64,000 nt of DNA from Symbiodinium natans (Eukaryota; Sar; Dinophyceae; Suessiales; Symbiodiniaceae): NCBI GenBank assembly GCA_905221605.1, contig CAJNDS010000422.1:1-64000 (forward strand). The letters run 5' to 3'. Below the pieces are notes generated by a model. It made no database searches. It was given only the letters and a program-made list of their open reading frames with translations, and had not been told where the DNA came from. Position 1 is the stretch's first letter; every line of letters starts with the position of its first letter. Of the stretch, positions 1 to 16,883 are shown piece after piece. A program made the position numbers and the translations under genes.

Positions 1-1
1 A

Positions 2-3000
2 ACTGAGCCTGAGGGACTGGCAGAGTTAAAGAGACATAGTCTTTCCATCTTCTCCTCGCATCCCCCCCTAGCTAGTGGCGTAGGCCAAGCCTTGCCCAAG
101 CTGGACAAAAGTAGTCTGTCCAAAGGCATAGCCTCTATAAAGCCGGAAAAGGCAGTACCGCAAGGATCTGCCCCCGCATCCATGTACCGCCTTTGTGCTT
201 CCACTGTGGCCAATAACTACTGCGACTATCTCGAAGCGGTGCCTCCGCCTCCCGCTCCGACCCATCAGGCGTGCGAGGTCACCTCCTGCCAAGGGAAGCG
301 CGAGCCTCAGCATAACACAGCACCAATGAATCCAGCCGAGCTACCCTCGCTGCCCATAACAGCCAAGTCAGCAGACCTTAGCTTCATACCCAAGCCCTCT
401 AAACCAGCCTCTAAGCCGGAGAACTTGCGACCGCTGGGCATCATTAGGCCAGATGGCAAAGGAATAGCCTCTGAGGCTAGGAGAAGACTTGACCCCCTCT
501 TCAAGAAGGCCCACTTTGCTTCCCCTCAATTTGCCTACATTCCAGGACGCGGTATCGCCGATGCCCAACTCCGGGTAATTGGCCACGCAAGGCGCGTCCG
601 TGCCATGCTTCGAGCCCGAGCACCAGACAGATTCTGCACTCCCAAGCGCACGAAGGGCAAGCCGGACCTAATCGGAGGCTTCACCTTCTCACTAGATCTC
701 TCTCAAGCTTTTGACAAAACAAGCAGAGAAGCTCTTTTGCGCTCACTAATTACTTATGGAGCCTCACCCGAAGACGTCGAGCTGGTTGCATCCCTCCATA
801 GGGAGGCCCAGTATAATCTGCGCTATGGACGAAGCCAGGAAACAGTAACCTCCACAAGAGGTATAAAGCAAGGATGCAAACTGGCCCCCTCCCTCTTCTC
901 CCTGGTCATCACGGAGGCGTTCCGGCTTATGGCCACCCACATAGGGTTCTCTCCAATACAGCAGTTCCTCACAGGCTTCGCAGATGACCTCGTAATTCAC
1001 CGAGACATCCACAACTGGTCTGATCTCTATGCGGCTCATGACATGGTTAGACTGTTACTGCACTACCTGCAAGAAGCCGGACTAGAAGTGAATTACGCCA
1101 AGTGCAACATCATGGTTAAACTGGCAGGTCGCCACGCGCAGCAGGCCAAGAAGCTCTTCAAGTCACAGGAGCTTCGCTCAGGCCGGAAGGTCACGGTCTG
1201 GAATATAGACGCACCAGAGCAGCCAAGACGGCCAATTCTGCTTTCGCATTCCTCAGTTCTTCCCCCTCTCCCCTCTCTTCCTTCCTTCGAGCTGGTAGAC
1301 TCCTTCAAGTATCTAGGAGTCATGATCAGCTACTCAAACCCGGAAGATCTTACCTATTCTTTAAGACAAGAGAGAGCGGCGAAGAAAAAGCAGACAGTGC
1401 GCAAATTCATTCACAATAAGCGCAGGACAAAAACCGCATCTAGGCTGCTTGTCTGGAGAGCCACCGTCTGGTCCACGGCCACTTTTGGCCTGGAATCCGT
1501 TGGTCTCTCAGGTAGGCGGGCAAGGGCTCTCCGCTCATGGCATGCCAGACAGGTGCGAGCGGTAACGCACAACCCTGTGCATAAGACTCGTGAAACTACA
1601 GCAGCGCTTTTTGCACGTCTGAAACTTGTCTCTCCCATTCAGCAGCTTCATGATCGCTCCGCCCAGCGCCTAGACTCTCTCCGCAAGCGCCGGAATGCAG
1701 CCCCAGCGAGTGAGGTCACCTCCTGCTCAACATCCACGCCGGCCAACGCGAGCTCTTCGCTCCTCACTCAGTCCGGCGCCTGGCCACGTGAAGATATCTT
1801 AACTATTCCCTCCACCCTGCAAACGGCGGAGGAAATTGTAGCCTCTTACAGCAAGCTGCTCAGGGAGGCCGACATTGACCCTTCTCCGGACGTGCCCATG
1901 CACACATGCTGTGGAAAGGTATTTCGTACTGCGGCGGGCCTGAGAACACACCGGACAGTCAAGCATCCGGCTCCTGTTCCGCCACCCCTTGAATTCTCAC
2001 GCCTAAAGCACTCCGTGGGAGGCCTGCCTCAATGCTCGCGCTGCCAGGCGAAATTTAAAAACTGGCATAATCTACAACAGCACGTTGAGCGCAGAGTCTG
2101 CCGACAGGCTGGTTTCAAGCTTTCTAGACCTGAGGCGGCCACTCAGGCTGACGAAGCTCCTTCCAAGGCGAGTGAGGTCTCCTCCAGCCAGGAGCTCGTG
2201 CCCTCGTCAGACTGCCGTGCTACTGCCGCACCCTCGGTCCAGCTTACCTTGCAGATGGACACAGTGCCTCTCATTTCGCGCATGCGCACCGAACTGCTGC
2301 AACAGGCCGGAACCCAGACCTTCCTCGAGCTCCTCACCGGCCACCTTGGCCAGCAACTCACCAGGACCTGTCTGCTCTGCGACTCGTGGATAGCCTCCAC
2401 GACAAAAATAGCCTTCCACCTCACAAAGAAACACGGGGCAGAATGGGACTCTTATAAAGCCTCGGCGGGGAATAACACCTCTAAGATGTATGTGCTGACC
2501 CGCCTGTCACCCTGTCCTGCCTGTGGCGTGAAAGTGGAGAGCGCCCCCCGACACACGAAGCAGTGCCCGGTCATTCAGCAATTACAACTCTTCTTCTTTC
2601 TGCACCCTGACGCCCCTCTTTCCAGAATGCACTCGTCCCTCCAACACACTCAGCTCTCACATCTCTCGCCTCCCACCTCTGGGGTTGGCGCATCTTCTCC
2701 TGCGGTCCCTAACCCCGGGCAGAGCACGACAACATCACACCAACACGCATCTCCCACACAGGCTACCCCCCAACCAAAGACGTTCCAACAGCGGACCCTG
2801 CAGGCTCCTAATCCCAGGTCCAAGCAAAGCCAGCTTCAGCGATGGTTTCGCCCAGGGAGTGCCTCCCAGGCTGCACAGCTAGGCGCAGGACCTCCTCAGC
2901 CAGCACCGACAGACCTGGATGCCTCTGCTCCGCCACCGCCTCCTGCAGCTCAGCCTATGCCACAATTGATTAATCCTCATAACTTGTGCTACGCCATTTC

Positions 3001-3748
3001 AGTCTTGCAGATGATTAGCGCTCTGAGGGAAGACCCCTCAGTGGACTGGTCGAACCTCCAACCTCTCCAGCGGGAACTTCGAGCAAGGGCCTCGCACCCA
3101 GTCTCTATTCTCGCACTAGAATCGCTCCCGCATTGTCATCCAGACTGGAGGCTTGCTAATAGGCAAAGTGATGCACTCGAGTACTTGACGTTCTTGTTGG
3201 CTAACCACCATGGCTCCCTACAAGGTACCCCCTGGAAGCGAGTCTATCATGCAGACATACCCGACTCAACTGGCTTCTCCCCCCTTCTACTAACCTTCCC
3301 GGAAGGCACCGACCCGACCAGGCTGTCCCAGCCTGACTCCCTAGCGGCGCCCCACTTAGCTTATTCACTGTCCTTTTTTGTGCACGAGTGGCACTCTCCG
3401 CATGATTCGAAGGCGGCACTGTTGTATACACCTCCTTATATCTTTGTGTCTCTGCCAAGGTTCACAAATGCCGGAGCGAAGCAGCACTGGAGACTCACGG
3501 GCTTGCAGGACGAAGTACAGCTGCCTGCATGGACCGGGCCTCACTCTCAATCTTTTGTTCGCTACAGATCCGTCTCGGGACTCTTTCACATAGGGCAGGA
3601 AGCCACCTCAGGTCATTACAGATCCTTCACCTTGCTTCCCTCTCTCCAGGTAGGTGATGACTCCAGCCCAGGCTTCTCGCCTACGAGCGAGGAACGTGCA
3701 CAGATCGGGTCAGGAGCTTACCTTTTGCTCCTCCAACGCTTAAGTTAA
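2..3748 (+). CDS. Reverse transcriptase - zinc finger - USP-type deubiquitinase fusion (5' partial)
   Basis: The frame is open from the left window edge (first in-frame ATG near 183), so the protein is N-terminally incomplete; 1,248 codons are visible, numbered from base 2. A LINE-type RT spans about residues 130-560: LDLSQAFD with Asp232, the GIKQGC motif, and the FADD catalytic box with Asp328/Asp329, followed by the usual basic post-RT region. Four C2H2-like fingers start near residues 636, 678, 790 and 838. A Pro/Gln-rich linker leads to a USP (C19) peptidase fold: Cys box NPHNLCYAISVLQ with Cys996, His box SGHYRSF with His1205, and a C-terminal AYLLLLQR like the end of USP domains. The Cys-His spacing (about 210) is short for a USP. 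Three hairpin elements pass through in frame (residues about 92, 570, 724). The RT copies element RNA; the protease role is inferred. No endonuclease is visible; it may lie upstream. Confidence 0.88.
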   Translation, partial: TEPEGLAELKRHSLSIFSSHPPLASGVGQALPKLDKSSLSKGIASIKPEKAVPQGSAPASMYRLCASTVANNYCDYLEAVPPPPAPTHQACEVTSCQGKREPQHNTAPMNPAELPSLPITAKSADLSFIPKPSKPASKPENLRPLGIIRPDGKGIASEARRRLDPLFKKAHFASPQFAYIPGRGIADAQLRVIGHARRVRAMLRARAPDRFCTPKRTKGKPDLIGGFTFSLDLSQAFDKTSREALLRSLITYGASPEDVELVASLHREAQYNLRYGRSQETVTSTRGIKQGCKLAPSLFSLVITEAFRLMATHIGFSPIQQFLTGFADDLVIHRDIHNWSDLYAAHDMVRLLLHYLQEAGLEVNYAKCNIMVKLAGRHAQQAKKLFKSQELRSGRKVTVWNIDAPEQPRRPILLSHSSVLPPLPSLPSFELVDSFKYLGVMISYSNPEDLTYSLRQERAAKKKQTVRKFIHNKRRTKTASRLLVWRATVWSTATFGLESVGLSGRRARALRSWHARQVRAVTHNPVHKTRETTAALFARLKLVSPIQQLHDRSAQRLDSLRKRRNAAPASEVTSCSTSTPANASSSLLTQSGAWPREDILTIPSTLQTAEEIVASYSKLLREADIDPSPDVPMHTCCGKVFRTAAGLRTHRTVKHPAPVPPPLEFSRLKHSVGGLPQCSRCQAKFKNWHNLQQHVERRVCRQAGFKLSRPEAATQADEAPSKASEVSSSQELVPSSDCRATAAPSVQLTLQMDTVPLISRMRTELLQQAGTQTFLELLTGHLGQQLTRTCLLCDSWIASTTKIAFHLTKKHGAEWDSYKASAGNNTSKMYVLTRLSPCPACGVKVESAPRHTKQCPVIQQLQLFFFLHPDAPLSRMHSSLQHTQLSHLSPPTSGVGASSPAVPNPGQSTTTSHQHASPTQATPQPKTFQQRTLQAPNPRSKQSQLQRWFRPGSASQAAQLGAGPPQPAPTDLDASAPPPPPAAQPMPQLINPHNLCYAISVLQMISALREDPSVDWSNLQPLQRELRARASHPVSILALESLPHCHPDWRLANRQSDALEYLTFLLANHHGSLQGTPWKRVYHADIPDSTGFSPLLLTFPEGTDPTRLSQPDSLAAPHLAYSLSFFVHEWHSPHDSKAALLYTPPYIFVSLPRFTNAGAKQHWRLTGLQDEVQLPAWTGPHSQSFVRYRSVSGLFHIGQEATSGHYRSFTLLPSLQVGDDSSPGFSPTSEERAQIGSGAYLLLLQRLS
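261..295 (+). repeat. Hairpin element H1 (inside RT ORF)
   Basis: The core GCGAGGTCACCTCCTG lies at 273-288. GGC (268-270) pairs with GCC (288-290), and an outer CCC/GGG pair is possible. It is read in frame as CEVTSC. The stem is weak. Confidence 0.6.
1705..1727 (+). repeat. Hairpin element H2 (inside RT ORF)
   Basis: An exact GAGTGAGGTCACCTCCT core at 1708-1724 has only a 3-bp stem, AGC/GCT. It is read in frame as SEVTSC, between the RT region and the first zinc finger. Confidence 0.65.
2160..2194 (+). repeat. Hairpin element H3 (inside RT ORF)
   Basis: Core GAGTGAGGTCTCCTCCA at 2170-2186. GGC/GCC closes the loop and TCC/GGA can extend it past a one-base bulge. It is read in frame as SEVSSS, between the second and third zinc fingers. 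Confidence 0.65.
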
Positions 3749-3749
3749 G

Positions 3750-3794
3750 TCCCGTTCATCTTCGTGTGAGGTCCCCTCCTGAAGGTGAACGGGA
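3750..3794 (+). repeat. Hairpin element H4, 14-bp stem
   Basis: The left arm 3750-3763 pairs over 14 positions with the right arm 3781-3794 around the loop GTGTGAGGTCCCCTCCT. Thirteen pairs are Watson-Crick and one is G.T, which would be a G.U wobble in RNA. It begins 2 nt after the RT ORF stop and ends 44 nt before the next ATG. This is the best stem in the series. Confidence 0.9.
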
Positions 3795-3837
3795 AGCGAT
3801 TTCACTCGTGATACCATGCGTGTCCTCCCCAAGCGCT

Positions 3838-4911
3838 ATGGAGCAAGCCCAGCAGGAGCTGCTGAACAACCCTGCACTATGCCAAGTGCTCTTTAAGAAT
3901 CTCCCCCATCTTGCCGCTTCATCCATGGCTGCGCGGGCATTTGGCCCTGATGAACGTTCAACGTCCAGAGAACTGGTCCCTGCTCACGACAGGGACAGGC
4001 CTCCCAAACAGCGCCGTCAGCAAAAGGACCTGGAGCAGGACGAGGAAATGCCGCCGACTCGGTTGCCCTCACCGTCCAGGAGGCCCAGGAGGACTGGTCG
4101 CCGTAATGGCTCCAGACCAAGGGCCTCGCAAAACGGTCTGCCGAAATCAAAGCAGGAGGTCAAACCAACCGCTGACCTCTTGGCCAGCATCATCTTGGCC
4201 CTGCTGAATCACGAGGATGAATTGACAGCCTTGCGATACCATCATGGATGGATCTTCTACGCCACGGTGCACCAAGCGAACAGTGTGGTTCCCTCCTTGG
4301 CACGGATCCAGCAACAGTGGAAGTCGGACCAGCCCCAGGACACCCCTGGCAAGCCCGTTCGCTACGCCCTGTTCCTCGGTCTCCTTCACGAGCTGCACAC
4401 TCGAGCCCAGGGCTTCGATCACGTCGCCTACGACAGCACGAATCAGGACAAGGAATCAGCACTTATCTCTCTACCAGGAGCACTTGCCTCCCGAGGTCGA
4501 CACCACACGGACGAGAACCCTGCCTTCTACTGGAACTACATGAGATGGGACGCCAAACAGCGGAAGGTAGTCATCGATGCCCAACGCCCTCCTCTCTCGC
4601 CCAAGGTTGTCTCCACCCACCTGGCGGCTATGCTCAAGCTAGATCAAGAACAGCTCACCAAGTTCAGGCCGTCCAGACCGCTGCGAGCCAACCTGACGGA
4701 AGAAAGGCCGGTCATCGCCTTCCTCCTGGAACTGGCCCTGACCATCGGAGACGACCATGAGGCAATGCACGCCTTTCGACTTCTAGCGAACAACTCAGTC
4801 TGGAACCTAGTGGGGGTCACCATGCGCAGGGAGGGCCTAAGACGGTCTCCACAGATGCAGACCCTCCGTGATCAGCTAGAAGCGCTGCGCACAGGAGGCA
4901 ACGAGGGCTAA
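3838..4911 (+). CDS. Unknown basic protein (357 aa)
   Basis: I do not recognise a family. The frame is open from a GTG inside the preceding hairpin, but the ATG at 3838 is preferred because it lies outside the stem and starts a plausible protein (MEQAQQELLNN). Residues about 45-110 are Arg/Lys/Pro-rich and probably disordered or nucleic-acid binding. The remainder is an alpha-helical-looking globular region with HEDELTALRYHHGWIF and a C-terminal RPVIAFLLELALTIGDDHEA segment. It is the second cistron, 89 nt after the RT ORF, with hairpins on both sides. By position it could be a Gag-like RNA-binding protein, but nothing seen directly supports that. Confidence 0.65.
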   Translation: MEQAQQELLNNPALCQVLFKNLPHLAASSMAARAFGPDERSTSRELVPAHDRDRPPKQRRQQKDLEQDEEMPPTRLPSPSRRPRRTGRRNGSRPRASQNGLPKSKQEVKPTADLLASIILALLNHEDELTALRYHHGWIFYATVHQANSVVPSLARIQQQWKSDQPQDTPGKPVRYALFLGLLHELHTRAQGFDHVAYDSTNQDKESALISLPGALASRGRHHTDENPAFYWNYMRWDAKQRKVVIDAQRPPLSPKVVSTHLAAMLKLDQEQLTKFRPSRPLRANLTEERPVIAFLLELALTIGDDHEAMHAFRLLANNSVWNLVGVTMRREGLRRSPQMQTLRDQLEALRTGGNEG

Positions 4912-4920: not shown

Positions 4921-4959
4921 GGACACCCGAGTCGAGGTCCCCTCCTGAGCTGTCCAAGG
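4921..4959 (+). repeat. Hairpin element H5
   Basis: GGACA (4921-4925) pairs with TGTCC (4951-4955) around a core with one extra base (GAGTCGAGGTCCCCTCCT). An outer CC/GG pair is possible. It starts 10 nt after the stop of the 3838-4911 ORF. Confidence 0.75.
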
Positions 4960-5006: not shown

Positions 5007-5050
5007 CCCTCCTACTCTCGTGTAGAGGTCCCCTCCTGAGAGAACGAGGG
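5007..5050 (+). repeat. Hairpin element H6, 13-position stem
   Basis: Arms 5007-5019 and 5038-5050 pair at 11 of 13 positions around GTGTAGAGGTCCCCTCCT. The stem sequence (CCCTC...CTCTC) is unrelated to that of H4 although the core is the same. Confidence 0.85.
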
Positions 5051-5377
5051 CGCTGATAAGTCAACCTGTTTTTCTTTCTCCCTTCTCTGCCGCCTCGTGC
5101 GCACCGTGCCTGCCAGGAAAAGTCTTTTCTGCACCACAAGTCAGGCTTCAAGTGGCGTACTGACTATTGCATCGAACTGCCTTTCTCCCATTACAACTGA
5201 GGCCGAGCTACACTAACGTCAGCTGTCGACCAGAGCGAGTCACACTCCAGGCTCTCGCATTGCTTACAAGCTGAGAGACTTTCCGCCATGTGCCTGACTG
5301 AAGCCCCAACTTAACTCAGCATCAGCCGTTCTGCTCATATTGATCAGTACAGATTGTTCCTCCATCATCACCACGCC
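5051..5377 (+). other. Spacer before the small Cys-rich ORF
   Basis: No convincing ORF. A possible decayed hairpin copy sits at 5232-5255, where AGAGC and GCTCT flank GAGTCACACTCCAG. Confidence 0.4.
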
Positions 5378-5641
5378 ATGGCAACCAACCCGGAGGGCAC
5401 GATTCTTGCCATTGAGAACACCCCTGGCATTCACACCCAGCCGACGACAAGCCAGGCCAATGTCGCCCAAGCGCTGGTTAAGGCAACGGCACCTCCGCCA
5501 CCACAGTCATCATGCGGAGCAGGCTGCGACCAATGCCACAGTGCTCCATGTGTTCGACACAAGCCGGGACATCTGTGGCACTGCTGCTTCGGGTGTAGAG
5601 ACTCCTGGGCGGTGCAACAAGCCCGCTCCAGATACTGGTAG
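5378..5641 (+). CDS. Small Cys/His-rich protein (87 aa)
   Basis: An ATG at 5378 opens an 87-residue protein ending at a TAG. The N-terminal half is Thr/Ala/Pro-rich. The C-terminal half holds a dense Cys/His cluster (CGAGCDQCHSAPC, then HLWHCCFGC), which would fit a small zinc-binding fold. It sits between hairpins H6 and H7 and fills an otherwise gene-free 1-kb gap, which favours a real cistron. The family is not recognised. A chance ORF remains possible because there is no second copy to compare. Confidence 0.5.
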   Translation: MATNPEGTILAIENTPGIHTQPTTSQANVAQALVKATAPPPPQSSCGAGCDQCHSAPCVRHKPGHLWHCCFGCRDSWAVQQARSRYW

Positions 5642-5665: not shown

Positions 5666-5705
5666 TTTTGCGACCAGCAAGTGAGGTCTCCTCCTGCAGG
5701 TAAAA
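5666..5705 (+). repeat. Hairpin element H7
   Basis: Core AAGTGAGGTCTCCTCCT at 5679-5695. ACCAGC and GCAGGT pair with one mismatch, and a TTTT/AAAA outer helix is possible past a 3-nt bulge. It starts 24 nt after the small Cys-rich ORF. Confidence 0.7.
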
Positions 5706-5883: not shown

Positions 5884-7770
5884 ATGTCTGACCTTACGCG
5901 CTGGCAAGATTCTGTGCTCAAAGAAGGTCCACTAGGTCTACAGCGCAGGGCACCTAGGACCATGCCCCCGCGGAAAAGACAGTCGAAAGCTTCGACTCTG
6001 CCCTCGTTCGATCTCGCCTCCAACATCTGCACAGAAGCTGATAGGCTGCTGCCTTCGAACTATGTCCCCATCTCGCATAAGAGAATGGACGAGATCAGAA
6101 ACTACCGCTGGGAGAAGGGTCTCCGTGCTATATCAAGAAGCATGATGGCCCGTCAATCGACAAGGCCGGTCTCGAGCCAGAGACAAGCGGACAAAGAAAG
6201 CAAGAGACTAGAAGAGCTGGGAATAAAAAAGCCTGGACTCACTGCAGAGGACTTAGCGGCCCTTCCTACCTCGGACGTGTACAAGAATCTCTCTTCGCTT
6301 TCCTTGATCTCGGTCGATACTTCCCGACCGGCAAGCTCCAGCGTGAGGTCGCCTCCGAGGAGCGGACACAGGGAAGCGAAAACAGAACCATCCTCCTCAT
6401 CTAAGCTCCAGGCAGAGCAGGCGAAAACCTTCACGGCAGAGCCAACACGAGAGCATGCACCGCAACCCTATGCGGGCCAAGGCGTGGGCAGGAAAGAAAC
6501 CTGCAAGGAAGAGTCGGACTCAGACATACCACCCTGGGCGGACTCGAAGAAGTCGCGCTCATCTCAGTACACCGGTGCAGGAGTTGGACAAAAGGAGGCC
6601 TTCGTCAGGCAGCCACCCCCACCTCCATCTCCTCCTGCAAGACAATCAGCTCCCGACTCAGGCCATCTTGAAGGCATCGCGCGCCTCACTTCCACAGAGG
6701 AGCTCCAGGTCGTCAATCTTACGCAAGCAGCTCCTCCTCCGCACGAGTTCCTGAACTACCCGGTGCATCAAGGAGTGATAGTTCTTCCAGCAGCCACAGT
6801 TCAGGCTCGCGTGGCAAGCAAGAAGGAACAAGACAAGGGCAAGGCGGTCATTCACTCCTTCCCCTACTCCTACCCGCAGGAATTCCCTTTGGAATTGGAT
6901 GTTCACGTGCAAGTTCGGAAATCGCAGGACGAGCAAGTCAGCATGGTTCTAAAACTGATCCGCACAGCATCCATGAAGGGCGTCACCAGAGCTGTATACA
7001 ACTTCAAGGGCGGGGAATTCTACTCGGTCTTCAAACTCTCAGTTGTTGCTCCCCAGGAAGAACAGGCCCAAGACGGACTTCAGGCTCATGAAGCGGAACT
7101 TGACTTGGCACACGTTTTCCCAGAGATGGTCCCTACGGTGGCAAACGTCTTTGCTATCCAGCTCAGAGTGGCTTCCGCGGTCAATCCCCTGGAGTTTCCC
7201 AAGTCTCCCACGCCGAGTGAGGTCTCCTCCTGGCGGGGAGACTCGGGCCCGCCGAAGTATCTCCTCATTCAGCAAGCCTACGGCATCATGGTGGAAAAGG
7301 TCCAGCCGCTGGATAACCTCCCACCGCATCTACGCCCCAGCATGGACGAGTGCTACCTGCTGATTCTCCTAGTACTCAAATCGGCGCTCCTAGGATACTA
7401 TGTACGAGACTGTGGTTGGTCCAACCTGGGCAGACGAATCTCGCCGGACTCCAGCACGGATCTGCCCTTCTTTCTTGCTCTCGACACGTCGGCCTGGCAC
7501 AAACGCACACCTCCGGCTCCTCAACAAGCCACAACTTCAACCGCAGATCATGTCCGAGGACTCTTCTCGACCCTAGAGTACCTGGCGGAGGACAAGCCGG
7601 CAATCCAGGCAGCCAAACAAGCCTTCACGCATCATCAGCGACAGGTCCCTCCTCTTGTCCAGCACTTCTTCTCCCTGCTCCGGACTCCGGTGGGCAAAGA
7701 AAAGGCAGAGAGAATCTTTAAGGACACGCCTCTGGCGCTCTCTGCTGAAGTGTGGGACGCCTTCAGCTAA
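5884..7770 (+). CDS. 628-aa protein with weak kinase-like C-terminal motifs
   Basis: The ATG at 5884 gives 628 residues. Residues about 1-300 are charged, Ser/Pro-rich and probably disordered. They include a repeated YAGQGVGRKE / YTGAGVGQKE unit and a PPPPPSPP run. The C-terminal half looks folded. Residues 507-514 read VRDCGWSN, matching the spacing of the kinase HRDxxxxN catalytic loop, and LDTS 25 residues after that Asp sits where DFG would be. LLIQQAYGIMVEKVQPLDN could be a hinge. No Gly-loop or VAIK lysine was found, so the kinase-like idea is a guess. Hairpins H8 and H9 lie in frame inside the ORF. It is the fourth cistron of the block. Confidence 0.7.
   Translation: MSDLTRWQDSVLKEGPLGLQRRAPRTMPPRKRQSKASTLPSFDLASNICTEADRLLPSNYVPISHKRMDEIRNYRWEKGLRAISRSMMARQSTRPVSSQRQADKESKRLEELGIKKPGLTAEDLAALPTSDVYKNLSSLSLISVDTSRPASSSVRSPPRSGHREAKTEPSSSSKLQAEQAKTFTAEPTREHAPQPYAGQGVGRKETCKEESDSDIPPWADSKKSRSSQYTGAGVGQKEAFVRQPPPPPSPPARQSAPDSGHLEGIARLTSTEELQVVNLTQAAPPPHEFLNYPVHQGVIVLPAATVQARVASKKEQDKGKAVIHSFPYSYPQEFPLELDVHVQVRKSQDEQVSMVLKLIRTASMKGVTRAVYNFKGGEFYSVFKLSVVAPQEEQAQDGLQAHEAELDLAHVFPEMVPTVANVFAIQLRVASAVNPLEFPKSPTPSEVSSWRGDSGPPKYLLIQQAYGIMVEKVQPLDNLPPHLRPSMDECYLLILLVLKSALLGYYVRDCGWSNLGRRISPDSSTDLPFFLALDTSAWHKRTPPAPQQATTSTADHVRGLFSTLEYLAEDKPAIQAAKQAFTHHQRQVPPLVQHFFSLLRTPVGKEKAERIFKDTPLALSAEVWDAFS
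6335..6363 (+). repeat. Hairpin element H8 (inside 628-aa ORF)
   Basis: GCTCC (6335-6339) pairs with GGAGC (6359-6363) around GCGTGAGGTCGCCTCC. It is read in frame as SVRSPPR, a different frame from the copies in the RT ORF. Confidence 0.7.
7203..7242 (+). repeat. Hairpin element H9, 11-bp stem (inside 628-aa ORF)
   Basis: GTCTCCCACGCC (7203-7214) pairs with GGCGGGGAGAC (7232-7242) as 11 Watson-Crick pairs with one bulged A, around an exact GAGTGAGGTCTCCTCCT. It is read in frame as SEVSSW. Confidence 0.88.
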
Positions 7771-8070: not shown

Positions 8071-8095
8071 TGTCGCGTGAGGTCTCCTCCTGACA
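8071..8095 (+). repeat. Hairpin element H11
   Basis: TGTC/GACA (4 bp) around GCGTGAGGTCTCCTCCT, 42 nt before the phosphatase ATG. Confidence 0.65.
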
Positions 8096-9367: not shown

Positions 9368-9378
9368 GCTAACTGGCC

Positions 9379-10110
9379 ATGTCAGCGCCGGAGGAAGGCA
9401 ATTCACATCGAGAAACCCGACACAGCGAAGACAAGCCCTCCAAGCGACGACATCCTCGCGGCAAGAGGCATCAGGCGGACTCAGACTCCCGTCTGATCAC
9501 GGAGGCTGACCTGGACTCTGAGGCTTCTTCCCTTCAGGATGATGACGACCTAGTGGAATCCCTGTCAAGGAGCTCCTCAAGACGGACAGCCTCTTCCCGG
9601 AACCAGCCCGCCCAACTGGCCCCAGGAGGCCCGCCTCCGCCCACTCCCATAACAACCAAGGCACTCTCGCCGGCGAACCAGGCTCAAACCGTACCCAAAG
9701 CCACCCAGCAGGCCTACCAGCCGTCGGGCCCCCCTCCCCCGACTCCGGTTCACCAGCCTTTCCAAGCGCAGGACTACTCAGGCCATAGCTCCCCTCCCAT
9801 GACGGAAGGTGCTCCCAGAACCACGGCACGTCCCTCCTCGACAAGTGGCACTTCAACGTCGGGGGCCTCAATGTCTCCCCCAGCCGCAGCTCATCCTCAT
9901 CCCGCGCAAGAAGCTGCAACGCTAGTGGGCACTTGGATCATCACTCCTGGACCGATTGTATCCCTTGCTCCTAACCCCTTCAGCCCGTGGTCCCCCCCAG
10001 CGCGCACCTCGGTACTGTCTGCCACAGGAAGCCCACTTCCTCCGGGCACAGTCCAGACCTGGATAATTACCGAAGGCCCACTTGTCCCAAGACGAGATCC
10101 GCAGGAGTGA
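9379..10110 (+). CDS. Pro/Ser/Thr-rich disordered protein (243 aa)
   Basis: The ATG at 9379 lies just after H13 and the ORF ends at a TGA at 10108-10110. Composition is dominated by Pro, Ser, Thr and charged residues, with an acidic stretch (DSEASSLQDDDDLVES) and basic N-terminal residues. Two internal repeat pairs are visible: GPPPPTP twice, and TWIITPGP / TWIITEGP near the C-terminus. No enzyme motif is seen. A scaffold or RNA-binding role is possible but not shown. Its position between two hairpin-bounded spacers supports a true cistron. The bases around its stop (GAGTGAGG) match the first 8 nt of the hairpin core and may be a remnant. Confidence 0.65.
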   Translation: MSAPEEGNSHRETRHSEDKPSKRRHPRGKRHQADSDSRLITEADLDSEASSLQDDDDLVESLSRSSSRRTASSRNQPAQLAPGGPPPPTPITTKALSPANQAQTVPKATQQAYQPSGPPPPTPVHQPFQAQDYSGHSSPPMTEGAPRTTARPSSTSGTSTSGASMSPPAAAHPHPAQEAATLVGTWIITPGPIVSLAPNPFSPWSPPARTSVLSATGSPLPPGTVQTWIITEGPLVPRRDPQE

Positions 10111-10133: not shown

Positions 10134-10173
10134 GCACTCCCTGCGAGTGAGGTCACCTCCTGCTAGGGAGTGC
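10134..10173 (+). repeat. Hairpin element H14, 11-bp stem
   Basis: GCACTCCCTGC (10134-10144) pairs with GCTAGGGAGTGC (10162-10173) as 11 bp with one bulged T, around GAGTGAGGTCACCTCCT. It starts 23 nt after the Pro-rich ORF. Confidence 0.9.
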
Positions 10174-10448: not shown

Positions 10449-10480
10449 AGGCAGAAAAGCGAGGTCACCTCCTGCTGCCT
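10449..10480 (+). repeat. Hairpin element H15
   Basis: AGGCAG (10449-10454) pairs perfectly with CTGCCT (10475-10480) around AAAAGCGAGGTCACCTCCTG. It ends 25 nt before the ATG at 10506. Confidence 0.82.
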
Positions 10481-10505
10481 AGCCCCCCCTCTCAAACCCT
10501 GCGTC

Positions 10506-11738
10506 ATGTTGCATACATGCCCGTTGCTCCCGCTACGACCAGACTCATCGACGATGCCAATGAAGTCCAAGCTCGCCGCGCTGAACCTCTTCTGCAAGGC
10601 AATGCTGTACACAGGCAAGAGAACCAGTGATCCGGATGCAAACCTCTACCTCTCGGATGAGGCCAAGGGTCTTGCTCGACGTGAGAACTGTATGCTGGCT
10701 CCAACCCTGAGACTGGCAGCACGCAGCTACAACTGGATTCGACTTCTCTCCCAATCAGCTCAGCCTAATCTTCCCTTGCTGGCCGAAGCTGAGATGGCAT
10801 CCCTATTATCACCCACAGAGCCTCCCCCTCATATCAAGCACTACGAGGCGGAACGGAGCTCACTTACCTTGCAGATGATACTCGAAACGGTGCATATCTA
10901 CACTGAAGAGGAGACCATGGAGCCGGACGACTTCAAGCTAGCCGCCCTTATCATTTCCCAGACTCTGTACAATCTGGGAATGGGCGGGCAAACCGTCAGG
11001 GACATTGTCAATGGCGCTGCCCAGCATCTGCGCTGGATCCTACCCAGTGACTCCACACGAGTTCTGAACGGAATACACCTTTGTCTCTTCCCTTCGGATA
11101 TCTCGCCGTGGCCGCGAGAGGCAGACACCAATCCACATACTCAAAGTGACGAACATGCATTGGGCATCCTCGACGCAGACATTCACATGCTACAGCGAGC
11201 GTCCAAGATTTACCGGACCATGGCCATGGTCGACTTCATGGTCGCCCGAGCACGAGGAGCACGAGTGCCAGACGAAGTCTGCCCCAGCGAACCCTGGGAC
11301 GTCCTGCGACAGGATCAAGCCATGGCACTCCTTTCATATGCGGAGCACTTGACGGAACTCCATGATCTCCTGACCACTGATGCGTACCAAAAGATGCGTA
11401 CAGACCTCCGCCTGGGCAGAACCTGGCTATCGCGACCCATCACAGCATCCGAACTGGCCTCGCTTGAAGCAATATGGCACAATACCACGATACCAGAGAG
11501 TTTTGCCAAGCTACACCTCACTCTCCAGCTCAAAGGGCAAATTGCTGCACACCTTCCGGAAGACTCCAGAGCACAGGACAGACTACTTACCATACTCTCT
11601 CCCCTGGAGAATGACGTCCTGGACCAGGCCTTCCCCTGGATTCTGGCCGTTAAGATGCTCACGCCTGAGCGCAGGATGATATTCCGATATGCTCTTCTTA
11701 CGGCAGCGGGCCCCTCGGCAACAGCGCCGGTTACGTAG
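10506..11738 (+). CDS. Paralogous family protein A (410 aa)
   Basis: An upstream in-frame TTG extends the frame to 10404, but the ATG at 10506 lies just after H15 and is preferred. The protein is all-helical in appearance and not recognised. It is the most divergent of four neighbouring paralogues. Shared landmarks are DADIHMLQRASKIYR (compare DLQALRRASTIYR in B), a segment ending in RTWLSRPI (compare RKWLLRDI) and the C-terminal ILSPLENDVLDQAF then KMLTPERR (compare INPLHDDVYEEY, KMLTPPNR). Function is unknown. The hairpin after its stop starts almost at once. Confidence 0.75.
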   Translation: MLHTCPLLPLRPDSSTMPMKSKLAALNLFCKAMLYTGKRTSDPDANLYLSDEAKGLARRENCMLAPTLRLAARSYNWIRLLSQSAQPNLPLLAEAEMASLLSPTEPPPHIKHYEAERSSLTLQMILETVHIYTEEETMEPDDFKLAALIISQTLYNLGMGGQTVRDIVNGAAQHLRWILPSDSTRVLNGIHLCLFPSDISPWPREADTNPHTQSDEHALGILDADIHMLQRASKIYRTMAMVDFMVARARGARVPDEVCPSEPWDVLRQDQAMALLSYAEHLTELHDLLTTDAYQKMRTDLRLGRTWLSRPITASELASLEAIWHNTTIPESFAKLHLTLQLKGQIAAHLPEDSRAQDRLLTILSPLENDVLDQAFPWILAVKMLTPERRMIFRYALLTAAGPSATAPVT

Positions 11739-11768
11739 ACCGAGTGAGGTCCCCTCCTGGTCAGCTAC
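11735..11768 (+). repeat. Hairpin element H16
   Basis: GTAGACC (11735-11741) pairs with GGT...CTAC (11759-11768) with a 3-nt bulge around an exact GAGTGAGGTCCCCTCCT. The left arm includes the TAG stop of protein A. Confidence 0.8.
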
Positions 11769-12110
11769 TTAACAAACCTAGTCAACTTCTTTCTCACAAG
11801 AAGATCGATGACGCCTGCTGCTAACAGACAAAGGAGAATTATTCCCGCTACTCTGCGCCTCTCCCAAACACAAATCTAGACACCCCTCTCCCTCTCCGAG
11901 CAGAGCCTCAGGTCCTTAACCAGAAAGAGGGAAACACGCACCAGCGCCAGCGCCTCAGCTCTGCCCACCTTCAGCTTGAACTCTGCTGCGCAACCCTACC
12001 CCTGCAGCTTAGCCCGAGAGAGGCCTTCCTTGAATTTCACCTCCTGGTTCCTTACCTTCGGCCTAAAAGCACCAAGGCAGCTGTGTTTGCTCCGGCTAAC
12101 ATCAGAGCCT
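11769..12110 (+). other. Spacer between H16 and H17
   Basis: No supported gene in about 340 nt. Pyrimidine-rich stretches only. Confidence 0.4.
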
Positions 12111-12140
12111 TCATACGAGTGAGGTCTCCTCCTGTATGAG
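12110..12140 (+). repeat. Hairpin element H17, overlapping the start codon of protein B
   Basis: TCATAC (12111-12116) pairs perfectly with GTATGA (12134-12139) around GAGTGAGGTCTCCTCCT. A T.G pair extends it outward. The right arm contains the ATG at 12136. Confidence 0.87.
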
Positions 12141-13428
12141 CCTGACCATGGAGGCCCTCCCTCCGGTACTGAGTAGGGATAAAACCATGGAGGTGCTTCT
12201 GGAATCCCTTTTCCTCCCGCTTCCGGTCTACCCTGCATCCTCCCTGGGAGACCACGAGGCCAGCACTATACAAATGGCATCTACACGCATCCCGGCAGAA
12301 GACGCCCTCCGGCACTCGGACCGTCAGATACGCATAGCTTCCCGCACCTGCAGCTTCATGAAACTGCTCACGGAGAAGATCAACTGGAGACTGGGCGACC
12401 TTCGACTCTACCTCCCCAAGACTGCCACTCGACAGCTAGCAGCCAAACGTAAGCACGAGGAAATGATGCTCCACGAGCCTCAGGAGAACACTCTGACCTA
12501 CATTCGGCGGCGTCAGCTCATCTTCATATCTCAGGCGATCAGAGACTACACAAATGATGGCCCAGGCCAAAACTCTTTTCAGATCGAAGATGCGGAGAAT
12601 ACCGCACTTCGAATTTGGACGTACCTAACCCGCCACTTTGCCAAAGGAGAGATCAACTTTATGATAGACACCGCCTTGTCGCATCTCCACCTCCTGATGA
12701 AGTCGGCGACACCATGTCTGATGTCAAGCATGGAGCAGTCGCAGCCGTCCATGGCTCCGGGACAAGGTCAGAGTTATTTTCCCCCACATCTAGGCCTACC
12801 CGAAGACAAACACTTGGATCTCCAATACTTCGACCTTCAGGCACTCAGGCGCGCGTCGACGATATACCGAGTACAGCAGCTTCTCAAGATATCTCACTCA
12901 ACCCAGGGCGGTGAGTCGCCCATCACCAATGGCTGGCGCTTCCAGCAACAAGCGCAACACCTCGACTCATTGCCCTATGACAAGCATCTCCAGGCCTTGC
13001 TGCCACACCTCCCGGACTACCAGGACCAACTCCGAGAGAACCTGGTGATGTACAGGAAATGGCTCCTACGAGACATCACTGAAGAGGAGACGGCCTGGGC
13101 CCGTGACACACTTTTAGAGTCGGCAGTCTCGAGAGGAGAACTCCGCGAACTTTTCGAGCATGCTCTCCTCAAGCAGGTAAACCATACACTTCAGGCCAGT
13201 GCTGAGTCTCCTCACCGCGTTGATTCTACTCCGAACTTCCAAAATAGCATGGCTCTTCGCTTCTACCAAATCATCAATCCTTTACATGACGACGTCTACG
13301 AGGAGTACAAGCCGTTTGCGATCGTCTATAAGATGCTCACTCCCCCGAACCGCCAACGGGCTCGATCACTTCATCGTACTTTGTCGCACGAGAGGCACCA
13401 GTCCTTCCTTCGTCTTTTTGAACCCTAG
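12136..13428 (+). CDS. Paralogous family protein B (430 aa)
   Basis: The ATG at 12136 lies inside the right arm of H17. A second ATG at 12148 aligns better with the start of protein D. B and D are both 430 residues when counted from their first ATGs and align nearly end to end. Shared blocks include MEVLLESLFLPLPVYP, QIRIASRTCSF, AAKRKHEEMML, FISQAIRDYTNDGPGQNSFQ and LDLQYFDLQALRRAST. No catalytic signature or membrane segment is seen; the fold looks helical. Four paralogues in a row suggest repeated duplication within the element, perhaps for a structural subunit, which is inference. Confidence 0.8.
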   Translation: MSLTMEALPPVLSRDKTMEVLLESLFLPLPVYPASSLGDHEASTIQMASTRIPAEDALRHSDRQIRIASRTCSFMKLLTEKINWRLGDLRLYLPKTATRQLAAKRKHEEMMLHEPQENTLTYIRRRQLIFISQAIRDYTNDGPGQNSFQIEDAENTALRIWTYLTRHFAKGEINFMIDTALSHLHLLMKSATPCLMSSMEQSQPSMAPGQGQSYFPPHLGLPEDKHLDLQYFDLQALRRASTIYRVQQLLKISHSTQGGESPITNGWRFQQQAQHLDSLPYDKHLQALLPHLPDYQDQLRENLVMYRKWLLRDITEEETAWARDTLLESAVSRGELRELFEHALLKQVNHTLQASAESPHRVDSTPNFQNSMALRFYQIINPLHDDVYEEYKPFAIVYKMLTPPNRQRARSLHRTLSHERHQSFLRLFEP

Positions 13429-13438
13429 CCTGCTAGCA

Positions 13439-13469
13439 ACTTTGCTTGTGAGGTCACCTCCTGCAAAGT
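13439..13469 (+). repeat. Hairpin element H18, 7-bp stem
   Basis: ACTTTGC (13439-13445) pairs perfectly with GCAAAGT (13463-13469) around TTGTGAGGTCACCTCCT. It starts 10 nt after the stop of protein B. Confidence 0.88.
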
Positions 13470-13751
13470 AGAGCACCAGGTTAGCAACGTCTCTGTCTAA
13501 CTAGGACACCAGCAGCCTTTAGCAAGCCAAGATAAAGCAGCGGAAAAGTCTCCATCTCCAACTGCAGCACAGTCCCTTCTCACTAAGATCACAGCGGCAT
13601 TCTCCGGCAATGAGGTCTTTCTGCGGATAGTTGGAGCCTGCTGCAGAGCCAATGCCTCAGCCTTGGCTGATTCACCTAGTAACACATTCAAGTCTGCAGC
13701 TTTCTGCTTTCATTGAAGCTTGCCACAGCCGGGCTCAGCCTCTCCACACAG
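13470..13751 (+). other. Spacer between H18 and H19
   Basis: No supported gene. Confidence 0.4.
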
Positions 13752-13778
13752 GCTGGCCACGTGAGGTCTCCTTCCAGC
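13752..13778 (+). repeat. Hairpin element H19
   Basis: GCTGG (13752-13756) pairs with CCAGC (13774-13778) around CCACGTGAGGTCTCCTT. The stem is shifted by a few bases relative to the other copies. It ends 13 nt before the ATG of protein C. Confidence 0.7.
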
Positions 13779-13791
13779 TAGCAAACAAGCC

Positions 13792-15030
13792 ATGCCTTCA
13801 CCGTCTCGCGAGATTCTGCTCGAGATTCTCCTGAAGTCGCTCCACGTCCCACTGACCATCTACCTACCCGACGGCATCAGTGAGCACATGGCCACATCAG
13901 CCTCAGCAACAACTCATCTTGCCCCGAGGAGGCTCCTCTTCACTACAGAAGACCTTGAACGCACGGCAGAACGAAGCATGCGAGTAGCATCACGTCTCTG
14001 CAGCTTCATATGTCACTTGGATCGGTACCTGGCTTGGCGCGAGGGCAGACACACAGCCCTGCCCCTAGAGGCTAGCCCACGTATCTTGGCAGGTAAGCGC
14101 AAGCACATTGACGACGAGCAGCCTTCGACGCACCTACCCTGGAGTATGGGGCCCCTCCAGCGCCAGCAAATCATGTACCTCACCCTCATGATCCACAACT
14201 ACACAAAAGACGGCGAAGGCTCGTCGTCCTTGAGCACGTCTGAAGCTGATCAGGCTGGTGCTTTAACCTGGCATTATCTTACCGGGAAGCTCTCGCAATC
14301 AGAGCTGAATGCCATTCTGCTCCGCACTTTGGAGCAAGCCAAGGTCATTCTGAGGTCTGAATTCACTCCAGCACATCAACGGAACCTACTCCAGCTGCAT
14401 CCCCAAACGACGGCGGAGACCTGGCAAGGCCAAGCATATTTCCCCCTAGGCCTCCGGCTTCAAGACCCACATCAGCTTGATCTTGAAGAATATGATTTCA
14501 GAACGCTCAAAAGAGCATCACTTCAGCTTCGCCTACTACAACAACTGCGGACTATTACGGCCTCCACACCTACATCGGCCAGCGACCAGATCCGAGATGG
14601 CTGGGATTTCCTTGAACAAGACCGTGATCTCTCAAAGCTTGACTACGAGGACTACCACACCAAATTGGTTTCAATGATCCCGCACTATCAGGAGACACTC
14701 CGAGAGATCCTGACACTGTATCGCCTATGGCTGTCCACCCCTCTGTCCGATGAGGACTTCCATTGGGTGCGCAACCTGGTAGCGAATCAGCTACTACCTA
14801 GAGATACTCTGCATCGCTACTTCGCTGACAGTCTCTGGCAACAAATACGACACAGATATGGAGGAGACCAAGGAGATTACGAGCAGGCCCAAGGAGTCAT
14901 CACAATTCTTTCCCCGCTCCACGACCAGGTCTATGATGACTATAAGAACTTTGCTGTGGCGCTGACACTGCTCCTCGTTCGACATCGTCAACGTCTGAAA
15001 CAGACGCTAGACGACAAAATTCGGGGCTAG
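13792..15030 (+). CDS. Paralogous family protein C (412 aa)
   Basis: The ATG at 13792 follows H19 by 13 nt. It is related to B and D but clearly diverged. It shares LLEILLKSLHVPLTIYLP at the N-terminus (compare LLESLFLPLPVYP), RVASRLCSF, AGKRKHIDD, MIHNYTKDGEGSSS, LDLEEYDFRTLKRASLQ and the C-terminal ILSPLHDQVYDDYKNFA. No known domain is recognised. It is complete, with no frameshift, which argues that the copies are kept under selection or are recent. Confidence 0.78.
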   Translation: MPSPSREILLEILLKSLHVPLTIYLPDGISEHMATSASATTHLAPRRLLFTTEDLERTAERSMRVASRLCSFICHLDRYLAWREGRHTALPLEASPRILAGKRKHIDDEQPSTHLPWSMGPLQRQQIMYLTLMIHNYTKDGEGSSSLSTSEADQAGALTWHYLTGKLSQSELNAILLRTLEQAKVILRSEFTPAHQRNLLQLHPQTTAETWQGQAYFPLGLRLQDPHQLDLEEYDFRTLKRASLQLRLLQQLRTITASTPTSASDQIRDGWDFLEQDRDLSKLDYEDYHTKLVSMIPHYQETLREILTLYRLWLSTPLSDEDFHWVRNLVANQLLPRDTLHRYFADSLWQQIRHRYGGDQGDYEQAQGVITILSPLHDQVYDDYKNFAVALTLLLVRHRQRLKQTLDDKIRG

Positions 15031-15057
15031 GGACCATCCGAGCACCACAGACTTCCA

Positions 15058-15080
15058 AACGAGTGAGGTCCCCTCCTGTT
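15058..15080 (+). repeat. Hairpin element H20 (stem almost absent)
   Basis: An exact core GAGTGAGGTCCCCTCCT at 15061-15077 has only AAC/GTT to close it. It starts 28 nt after the stop of protein C. Confidence 0.65.
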
Positions 15081-15179
15081 CGCTGCACTATCTTCCCAAA
15101 TTGCGGGGAAAAAGCCTGTAGCTCCAATCTTTCCACGTCAAGCCTCACAAGCACAGCTCTTCTCGCAAAGTTTTCCCTC

Positions 15180-15215
15180 AGGTTCGCACGAGTGAGGTCC
15201 CCTCCTGGCGAACTT
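15180..15215 (+). repeat. Hairpin element H21
   Basis: GTTCGC (15182-15187) pairs perfectly with GCGAAC (15208-15213). A G.T and an A-T pair extend it to 8. The core is ACGAGTGAGGTCCCCTCCTG. It ends about 12 nt before the ATG of protein D. Confidence 0.86.
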
Positions 15216-15227
15216 CCACCTAGGCCC

Positions 15228-16520
15228 ATGGCAGACCTTCACCCCGTTCTCAGCCGTGAACAGGCAATGGAGGTACTTCTTGAGTCTCTATTCCTACCGC
15301 TGCCGGTTTACCCTACAACTCCATCTGGTGCCGCCGCAGCAAGCAATCTGGACCTGGCATCCTCACGCACCCCTGCGGGAGAAGCGATCCCACACTTGAA
15401 CCGCCAGATACGGATAGCCTCGCGCACCTGCAGTTTCTTGAAGCTGCTCGCGGAGAAAGTTCACCGGCACATGGGAGACTTGCGGCTCTACCTTCCCAAA
15501 ACCGCACCTCGAAACTTGGCCGCAAAACGGAAGCATGAAGAGATGATGCTGACAGAGCCTCGCTCTCCTACTCTGACGTACCATCAGAAGCGCCAGCTCC
15601 TCTTCATCTCTCAGGCGATTCGAGACTACACCAACGATGGCCCTGGCCAGAACTCCTTCCAGCTCGAAGATGCGGAACCTACCACCCAGCGCATCTGGAC
15701 GTACCTGACGCGCCACTTCGGCCAAGGTGAGGTGCACTTTATGATTGCTAACGCCCTGTCGCATCTGCACCTTCTCATGCGATCGTCAACTCCATGCCTA
15801 CTCTCAGGCATTGAGCAGTCACAGCCATCGTATGCTCCAGGACAGGGCTCGGACTACTTCCCTGTCAATCTTCGTCTGCACGATGACAAGCAACTGGACC
15901 TTCAATACTTCGACCTGCAGGCGCTAAGGCGAGCCTCCACAGTATACCGGGTGCAGCAGCTGCTCAAGGTCTCTTCTTCCGCCGAAGGGGCATCGCCAGT
16001 TAAGAATGGATGGCGCTTTCAACATCAGGACCATCACCTCAATGGTTTGTCCTACGACCAACATCTCCTGGCTCTGCTGCCTCATCTTACTCACTACCAG
16101 GACCAAATTCGCGAAGATTTGGTCACCTACAGGCAGTGGCTGCTTCGAGAAATCAACGCAGAGGAAGTTTCTTGGATTCAATCCTTGATCGCGGACACGG
16201 TTATCTCGCGAGGTGAACTACTGGAGCTCTTCGAGGATGCCCTGCTAAAGCAAGTCAACTCTGCATTTCAAGCTAATGCTGGTATTCCTAACCCTGAGGA
16301 TCATTCTCAAGACTTCCAGAACAGCATGGCCCTCTGCTTCTATCAAATCATCAATCCGCTCTATGATGACATCTACGAAGAGCACAAGCCCTATGCAATA
16401 GTGTTCAAGATGCTCACCTCCTCTCATCGTGGACGGCTTCGGTCCCTCCTTCGAGCTCGAGAAGCTGTCATTCTGGCGTCCCCACATCGGACAACCAGCC
16501 TGGTTCCAGTATGCGAGTGA
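15228..16520 (+). CDS. Paralogous family protein D (430 aa)
   Basis: The ATG at 15228 (MADLHPVLSREQ) is chosen because it aligns with the start of protein B. The frame is open back to 15063 through both H20 and H21, each read as VRSPP, so a longer product cannot be excluded. It is the closest paralogue of B over the whole length, with the same number of residues and the same ordered blocks. The stop codon TGA (16518-16520) is the one in the core of H22, as for the phosphatase and H12. Function is unknown. Confidence 0.8.
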   Translation: MADLHPVLSREQAMEVLLESLFLPLPVYPTTPSGAAAASNLDLASSRTPAGEAIPHLNRQIRIASRTCSFLKLLAEKVHRHMGDLRLYLPKTAPRNLAAKRKHEEMMLTEPRSPTLTYHQKRQLLFISQAIRDYTNDGPGQNSFQLEDAEPTTQRIWTYLTRHFGQGEVHFMIANALSHLHLLMRSSTPCLLSGIEQSQPSYAPGQGSDYFPVNLRLHDDKQLDLQYFDLQALRRASTVYRVQQLLKVSSSAEGASPVKNGWRFQHQDHHLNGLSYDQHLLALLPHLTHYQDQIREDLVTYRQWLLREINAEEVSWIQSLIADTVISRGELLELFEDALLKQVNSAFQANAGIPNPEDHSQDFQNSMALCFYQIINPLYDDIYEEHKPYAIVFKMLTSSHRGRLRSLLRAREAVILASPHRTTSLVPVCE

Positions 16521-16544
16521 GGTCGCCTCCAGCAAACTGAACCA
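16501..16544 (+). repeat. Hairpin element H22, 12-bp stem, overlapping the stop of protein D
   Basis: The left arm 16501-16514 pairs with the right arm 16532-16544 as 12 pairs with one mismatch and one bulge around GAGTGAGGTCGCCTCCA. The core TGA ends protein D. Confidence 0.9.
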
Positions 16545-16835
16545 TCAAATCCCTAAGTTCCTCTAGTCCGAATTCTGGACTTAATCACACCTCCAGACCA
16601 CTGCTCGCACTGCAGAAGAAAAGCCTCCATGCCTTATAATGCACAAGCGCCAGCCTGCTAAGCTGATGCCCCCCAGACTCGGCCTGCCCGCCAGCTTGCC
16701 TGCTGAGGTTGAGGACCAATCTCGCAGAGAAGTGTACAGAAGCGCAACCCGCCTGGCTACAATGGCCAGGACATCGAAACAGACCAGGCCCCGAACGAGT
16801 AGGTCACTTAATTTTCACCCTCGATGCCCGCCAAG
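16545..16835 (+). other. 3' untranslated part of the multi-ORF block
   Basis: A 69-codon basic frame (16639-16848) has no support beyond its ATG. GAACGAGTAGGTCAC near 16795 may be a decayed hairpin core. Confidence 0.4.
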
Positions 16836-16855
16836 GTGCGGGACATAACCCGCAC
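16836..16855 (+). promoter_or_regulatory. Terminal stem-loop, candidate RT recognition site
   Basis: GTGCGGG (16836-16842) and CCCGCAC (16849-16855) form a perfect 7-bp stem with a 6-nt ACATAA loop. It lies a few bases before a pentamer repeat. In stringent-type LINEs such as UnaL2, a 3' stem-loop followed by short tandem repeats is the RT recognition tail; the same role here is inferred. Confidence 0.6.
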
Positions 16856-16862
16856 ATGCGTT

Positions 16863-16883
16863 CGAAATGAAATGAAATGAAAT
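16863..16883 (+). repeat. (GAAAT)n pentamer tail
   Basis: About four tandem GAAAT/AAATG units directly after the terminal stem-loop. This marks the probable 3' end of the retroelement block. Confidence 0.75.

Follow-up and report, generated by a model that had tools for sequence, protein, structure and literature searches.

A recurrent hairpin with a constant apical unit and private stems along a giant LINE-type retroelement of Symbiodinium natans: candidate protein-recognition sites

Hairpins that present a fixed loop or bulge on variable stems to one protein reader include the iron-responsive element (IRE) and the Smaug and Roquin hairpins; there are few per mRNA, with other loop sequences than those described below, and they belong to cellular genes. 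Rickettsia palindromic elements and organelle double-hairpin elements are repeated hairpin units in coding and noncoding DNA with stems common to the copies, and terminons carry many extra open reading frames (ORFs). Terminons are giant rotifer retroelements with repeated hammerhead ribozyme motifs (PMC6431247); in long interspersed elements (LINEs) of the stringent type, the reverse transcriptase (RT) must recognize a stem-loop in the 3' untranslated region (3'UTR) (PMC5135761); MS2 requires specific unpaired residues in its hairpin, whose stem bases are exchangeable, and has extra low-affinity sites dispersed along its genome (PMC8472981); and dispersed packaging signals in RNA viruses are described for MS2, satellite tobacco necrosis virus (STNV), enterovirus E and hepatitis B virus (HBV) (PMC3593212, PMC7793301, PMC7612645, PMC8472981). 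Here we analyse a 64,000-nucleotide stretch of Symbiodinium natans DNA (contig CAJNDS010000422.1, G000:C422:1-64000; hereafter the window), the first 16.88 kb of which, judged from the predicted proteins, belong to a giant non-LTR (LINE-type) retroelement with many ORFs and form its 3' part on the + strand. This part carries 22 copies of a hairpin with a constant apical unit on private stems, and we give a probability of roughly 0.43 to the reading that these are sense-RNA hairpins acting as protein-recognition sites for assembly or self-recognition of the element RNA.

The window contains 22 cores of the pattern C-GNGY-GAGGTCNCCTC-CTG, all on the + strand, with starts from 275 to 16519 (each hairpin is named below by its core start). 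The same 22 + strand copies are found with the 12-nt core GAGGTCNCCTCC at no more than 1 mismatch, which agrees with an earlier note on this DNA that counted 22 cores in the first 16.8 kb and none in the other 47 kb. At 2 mismatches extra matches of the 12-nt core appear on both strands and also in the other 47 kb, none of them within 3 mismatches of the 18-mer, which at that tolerance has 19 window matches (all on the + strand, 271 to 16532) against a chance mean of 0.27. In a gapless alignment of 35 columns, GAGGT, CCT and the C after CCTC are invariant among the 22 copies and four more columns are nearly so, giving an apical unit C-GNGY-GAGG-TCN-CCTC-CT-G: the GAGG/CCTC fold-back seed is in every copy (13763 has one G.T in it), nearly all keep the asymmetric GNGY/CT internal loop, and the outer C/G closes the private stem in 17 of 22. 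The loop base N (e.g. 281, 1718, 3774) shows 20 differences in 148 noncoding comparisons (13.5%), against 5.5% for ordinary noncoding positions of these alignments. A covariance model built from the 22 copies, as the earlier note had proposed, adds no window site at E up to 1, and Rfam at gathering thresholds has 0 window matches. The model gives 23-42 bits to the 22 window copies (its training set), 13.5-34.9 bits to 13 of the 14 cores on contig C155 (a relative outside the training set, described below) and 17-30 bits to 35 chance-like core matches that served as controls; because these ranges overlap, the model mostly reads the core and offers no separate proof of the stems. The controls were 23 loci in viral contigs (16-mer pattern) and 12 in prokaryote genomes (18-mer), each with one match, and both sets look like chance.

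In their fixed apex and variable stems these hairpins resemble those of the IRE, Smaug and Roquin systems, and differ from them in their many copies and in belonging to a LINE. Terminons combine a Penelope-like RT with hammerheads, whereas this element has an APE-type LINE RT and no Rfam match. As in viral packaging signals, several hairpins on one RNA have a common short recognition motif; unlike in those signals, the constant part is longer, extending over about 19 nt, and takes in a paired helix as well as an internal loop, the copies stand at LINE ORF borders, and these putative sites come without a known capsid protein. The likeness to the 3'UTR stem-loops of stringent-type LINEs (PMC5135761) is that of a cis-acting stem-loop with a bulge in LINE RNA; unlike these, the present hairpins occur in 22 copies along the coding body, the last of them ending up some 340 nt short of the probable 3' end. 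The hairpin architecture is known and the setting is new: where the earlier note knew of no described system like this, protein-recognition hairpins provide precedents for the architecture, and the LINE setting is what stays novel. No earlier report of the element or motif was found among the best-ranked open-access papers on dinoflagellate LINEs with hairpins, giant multi-ORF retroelements, conserved-loop/variable-stem hairpins and palindromic elements, most subscription papers and all bioRxiv preprints being outside this coverage.

The arms are private, the stem sequence beyond the core not being common to the copies, which sets these hairpins apart from palindromic mini-elements. Nevertheless each arm matches its own partner: the own-arm pairing total is 252.5, against 113.7 +/- 13.2 for arms re-paired among copies, and was reached in 0 of 20,000 re-pairings, contrary to the prospect that arm complementarity might be no better than in shuffled flanks. 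The stems singled out by the earlier note are present, with 14 pairs at 3768, 12 with a bulged A at 7219, 11 at 10149 and 12 at 16519. Its wider statement that the arms are complementary at most sites holds for the pooled copies and not site by site, the own-arm score falling in the top 5% of re-paired arms at 10 of 22 sites and in the top 13% at 16 of 22; only 3 bp adjoin the core at 275, 1712, 2174 and 15065. A test of stem covariation, which the same note had suggested, comprised five measures, two of which (given below) are not clearly above the shuffles; it is positive for the paired cells of the named structure (77.3% against 63.5% shuffled, 0/500) and for the covariation score (0.335 against 0.107 +/- 0.020 shuffled, 0/500), which is at most 0.181 when partners are slid by 1-3 columns. 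RNAalifold predicts just four core pairs, as is expected because the stems lack common sequence and their bulges differ. When the sites are folded singly over 53 nt, the minimum-energy structure of the sense strand includes the core helix in 19 of 22 cases and the private stem in 18, the exceptions for the stem being 7796, 8079, 9045 and 15065.

Copies elsewhere in the genome (759 Mb, 2543 contigs) extend this pattern. The exact core has 266 + 236 copies and the reversed-pattern control 0; among 100 core places listed, 99 have a second listed one on their contig, and the pieces of genome examined around listed places are copies or relatives of this element, which is not the behaviour of a stemless dispersed repeat. 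For comparison, 22 genome stretches were taken by place; within each of 20 stretches the cores (at no more than 1 mismatch) have one common orientation, as do the 22 window copies, a uniformity for which a symmetric double-stranded DNA site would have no need. Contig C155 carries a collinear relative family (56-71% DNA identity in most aligned pieces) with 14 cores that have their own arms (pairing 134.0 against 73.0 +/- 10.4, reached in 0/20,000). Of 14 matching sites compared between the window and C155, 12 pair better with their own arms than with swapped ones (exact sign-flip P 0.0006), while 275 and 5683 pair worse; the matching of 16519 with 90328 rests on order, and leaving it out gives 11/13 (P 0.0012). 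For this matching, 10461 was set against 86028, and 10149 and 86885 (within an ORF by alignment) were left out. In a third family, C791, own arms are better at 4 of 5 sites (P 0.094); between C155 and C791 they are better at 4/4 (P 0.0625); and paralogue arm swaps inside the window favour own arms 4/4 in two sets of two (P 0.25 each). The superiority of own arms at matching sites indicates that the stem persists while its letters change, including in the hairpin over the phosphatase ORF stop. Pairing is kept through both-side changes, both between window copies and between families.

Change rates between closer copies were taken from 19 stretches (L066-L086 minus two C155 stretches) aligned to the window, with C155 and C791 left out, a main floor of at least 78% identity (27 segments) and the loop N excluded from core counts; the copies share ancestry, so that comparisons are not independent trials. 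Third codon positions of the core differ in 1 of 253 comparisons, against 2678 of 38,051 (7.0%) for other third positions in ORFs, and noncoding core positions differ in 32 of 2430, against 1005 of 18,417 for other noncoding positions. GAGG differs in 0 of 565 and CCTC in 13 of 594, and paired noncoding arm positions change less often (63/2389, 2.6%) than unpaired ones (168/2717, 6.2%). The pattern is unchanged at a 90% floor or without a floor, although the no-floor set includes some 71-72% identical, partly paralogous segments (L069, L074, L086). Frozen third positions in the core, together with the slower paired arms, indicate that the nucleic acid itself is under selection. Between the two origins offered by the earlier note, a selected structure is accordingly favoured, since changed arms still pair, third positions are frozen and paired arms are slower, and an insertion mechanism less so.

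The window begins at base 1 of its contig, and ORF1 is open at the contig edge; all ORFs and hairpins given here are on the + strand. The 3' part of ORF1 (2..3748) encodes a predicted LINE RT, C2H2 zinc fingers and a ubiquitin-hydrolase-like domain (Pfam RVT_1 2.6e-23; zf-C2H2 4.1e-5 and UCH 1.2e-4, both slightly below the Pfam cutoff). The endonuclease part is off the contig, and the endonuclease domain is seen in a relative, P0002 (1805 aa, PF03372 and PF00078), which has 95% identity to ORF1 across the window part; through this relative, the element is classed from sequence as an APE-type LINE, with RVT_1 and an N-terminal APE-like endonuclease in one ORF. The best-scoring named RT relatives are from Symbiodinium (P0014, P0018), and weak matches bear the names Ixodes and Culex. 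The same genome also contains further LINE families with long open RT frames related to P0005 (e.g. G000:C1841:66717-71531). Within ORF1 lie the hairpins 275 (263..297; weak 3-bp inner stem), 1712 (1700..1734) and 2174 (2162..2196), the latter two also with weak inner stems. The peptide VRSPP in P0002 predicts one more hairpin, the 23rd, in the endonuclease part; L068, L071 and L081 carry DNA copies of it.

Hairpin 3768 (3750..3795; one G.T in its stem) is directly 3' of the ORF1 stop, and nine ORFs follow, the first coordinate of each being that of its ATG. ORF2 (3838..4911; 357 aa, no Pfam match) is followed by 4934 (4922..4956), 23 nt past its stop, and by 5025 (5008..5052), with a stem of 5 bp, a 3x3 loop and 5 bp; ORF3 (5378..5641; 87 aa, cysteine-rich by eye) is followed by 5683 (5671..5705), 42 nt past its stop. 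ORF4 (5884..7770; 628 aa, no Pfam match above cutoff) contains two hairpins, 6345 (6333..6367; GCTCC/GGAGC stem) and 7219 (7203..7248), and 7796 (7784..7818) comes 26 nt past its stop. ORF5 (8138..9046), a predicted dual-specificity phosphatase (Pfam DSPc 7.4e-10), is preceded by 8079 (8067..8101), 59 nt upstream of its ATG, and has its TGA stop within the core of 9045 (9033..9067); ORF6 (9379..10110; 243 aa, proline/serine-rich by eye) has 9347 (9335..9369) 32 nt upstream of its ATG and 10149 (10134..10172) 39 nt past its stop. ORF7 (A, 10506..11738) lies between 10461 (10449..10483), 45 nt upstream of its ATG, and 11746 (11734..11768), 8 nt past its stop; ORF8 (B, 12136..13428) between 12121 (12109..12143), 15 nt upstream, and 13450 (13438..13472), 22 nt past; ORF9 (C, 13792..15030) between 13763 (13751..13785), 29 nt upstream, and 15065 (15053..15087; weak stem), 35 nt past. 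ORF10 (D, 15228..16520; 430 aa) has 15194 (15182..15216) 34 nt upstream of its ATG, and its TGA stop is within the core of 16519 (16501..16547). The probable 3' end of the element, at 16864..16883, consists of short GAAAT repeats; the trinucleotide microsatellite (ACT)n and an AT-rich stretch (16883-17945) abut it, with 72-bp tandem repeats next.

ORF7-ORF10 form one paralogue family, arranged as four tandem members, A-D (10506-16520), in which ORF7 and ORF9 are distant in sequence from ORF8 and ORF10. Identity to ORF10 ranges from 26 to 66% for ORF7-ORF9 (26% for the distant paralogue ORF7, 32% for ORF9), and ORF8 has 71.6% DNA identity to it over 1157 columns. ORF10 belongs to a multicopy family, with 98 genome matches scored, ORF8-type paralogues included; the sole sequence match of the ORF10-family profile in PDB, 6xns (C3_crown-05, E 0.049), is not credible. 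A phosphatase ORF (8138-9046) in a LINE whose RT protein (2-3748) has a ubiquitin-hydrolase-like domain is a further feature of the gene set. Relatives of the element's proteins were searched for in viral contigs, and none were found; a dinoflagellate spliced-leader relic was likewise sought in the window, with none found. Outside the element, Pfam on ten ORFs gave one below-cutoff GPS match and nothing else, and internal TTTAGGG-type (telomere-like) arrays of up to 55 units lie at 23301-23477, 47815-47895 and 53253-53633.

The copies stand at ORF borders and in linkers of the encoded proteins. What favours a protein-recognition hairpin is the combination of a constant apical unit, stems of any sequence, a single orientation and constraint at the level of nucleic acid. 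In such a scheme each hairpin would show one apical unit (a C-G closing pair, the GNGY/CU internal loop, the GAGG/CCUC helix and the UCN triloop), which an element-encoded or host protein would bind on the element RNA; the stem would mainly prop up the unit, its letters drifting in pairs; and the many dispersed sites could let the element recognize and assemble its own very long RNA, by ribonucleoprotein assembly or cis-preference, much as dispersed packaging sites serve RNA viruses. The copies within ORFs, including the 12-pair stem at 7219, point to binding rather than to cleavage, termination or a purely intercistronic role. A bolder and rather doubtful extension is that the element has its own RNA address code: the apical unit, repeated in protein linkers and at almost all gene borders, would be read by an element protein (perhaps of the ORF7-ORF10 family), and an RNA exceeding 16 kb would thereby be recognized, counted or packaged in a virus-like manner.

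Several results weigh against recognition hairpins in the sense RNA. Three of the five within-ORF copies have inner stems of just 3 bp, and the two covariation measures deferred above show no clear excess (both-side-changed pairs, 7 against 6.8 shuffled, 398/500; pair types, 28 against 23.5 shuffled, 19/500). Stem changes in close copies are mostly uncompensated: among 60 distinct events there are 5 Watson-Crick, 11 G.U, 18 A.C and 26 other outcomes (cores sought at no more than 2 mismatches, the matching of divergent copies being rough). In the no-floor set, first codon positions in the 10-nt arms differ in 9.7% of 340 comparisons, against 2.9% elsewhere. Clustering at ORF edges is not demanded by a pure packaging role. 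Beyond the RT and zinc fingers of ORF1, Pfam finds no credible nucleic-acid-binding domain in the nine ORFs scanned, nor do PDB sequence searches in ORF2, ORF4 and the ORF10 family, and these Pfam and PDB searches yield no candidate for a capsid or nucleocapsid-type protein. As for the strand, of the 22 sites 15 fold more stably as antisense and 6 as sense, with 1 tie, permissive alignments contain 35 A.C against 18 G.T, and own arms separate from re-paired arms similarly whether G.U (z 13.2) or A.C (z 12.0) is allowed; these counts, z values and energies show no preference for sense RNA, which we infer to be the folding strand.

The main rival is intercistronic punctuation, in which hairpins past stops and ahead of starts would steer translation, through termination, reinitiation or shunting, or would mark mRNA ends at which a polycistronic transcript is processed. 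It is kept alive by the clustering at ORF edges: all 10 stops have a core start at -1 to +42 nt, and 7 of the 9 ATGs have one 15-70 nt upstream. With limits of 40 nt for stops and 75 nt for starts, 9 stops and 7 starts qualify; like all placement cut-offs, these limits were picked after the distances were seen. Circular shifts reach these counts in 0.25% (stops) and 0.12% (starts) of cases and random placement reached neither in 20,000 trials. Moreover, 15 of the 22 copies start in noncoding DNA, and 14 of these adjoin an ORF edge, as do 29% of noncoding positions overall (P 4e-7); and the TGA within the core is the stop of ORF5 and of ORF10, as it is at the matching ORF5 stop on C155 and the ORF10 stops in L086 and L087. 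Punctuation does not account, however, for the five of 22 copies inside ORFs away from borders or for the one predicted in the endonuclease part of P0002; within-ORF hairpin 7219 ties for the best stem score, and a signal for processing or termination at that point would disrupt the gene. Neither is there a U-run 3' of the hairpins (by eye), and the ATGs of ORF3 and ORF4 have no nearby core (353 and 201 nt). On balance this explanation is unlikely, though it fares best among the alternatives to protein recognition.

A lesser likelihood attaches to the structure acting as single-stranded DNA, by fold-back of cDNA in reverse transcription or replication, or as antisense RNA. The greater stability of antisense folds at 15 sites and the nearly equal separation of arms under A.C-permitting scoring (antisense G.U) are what this explanation would lead one to expect, but the energy gap between strands would also follow from the asymmetry of the core and is weak evidence; the overlap with ORF starts and stops fits a role at the level of sense RNA, and a recombinase domain was not found in the nine Pfam-scanned ORFs. 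Less probable still is a functionless selfish or mutational origin, through insertion of a palindromic unit or through fold-back templating that copies the flank into an inverted repeat. The fold-back seed (GAGG..CCTC) in every copy would suit templating, and the ORF1 hairpin segments look inserted, related LINE proteins without the peptide signature having gaps or shorter linkers there (at the peptide level). Templating would, however, tend to erase the asymmetry of the GNGY/CT loop, which persists, and pair-restoring double changes are nearly absent in close copies, so that ongoing templated repair is not seen; insertion alone would leave the frozen third positions, the slower paired positions and the placement at ORF edges unexplained. 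That the core is a mere protein motif or a chance repeat can be dismissed, for although the three ORF1 copies and 7219 read it in one frame as EV(T/S)S, 6345 uses another frame (VRSPP), noncoding DNA holds the start of 15 of 22 copies, and the 18-mer counts (chance expectation 0.27), the arm re-pairing and the nearly frozen third positions all contradict it.

How a LINE protein chooses its own RNA is presented as an open question in PMC5135761. Self-recognition of LINEs is usually studied on one 3' stem-loop or poly(A) tail. If the hairpins are protein-recognition sites, their 22 parallel versions per element, in many copies and at least one diverged family, make the rules of binding directly testable, and a non-LTR element can bear dispersed, virus-like recognition sites together with an unusually large gene set.

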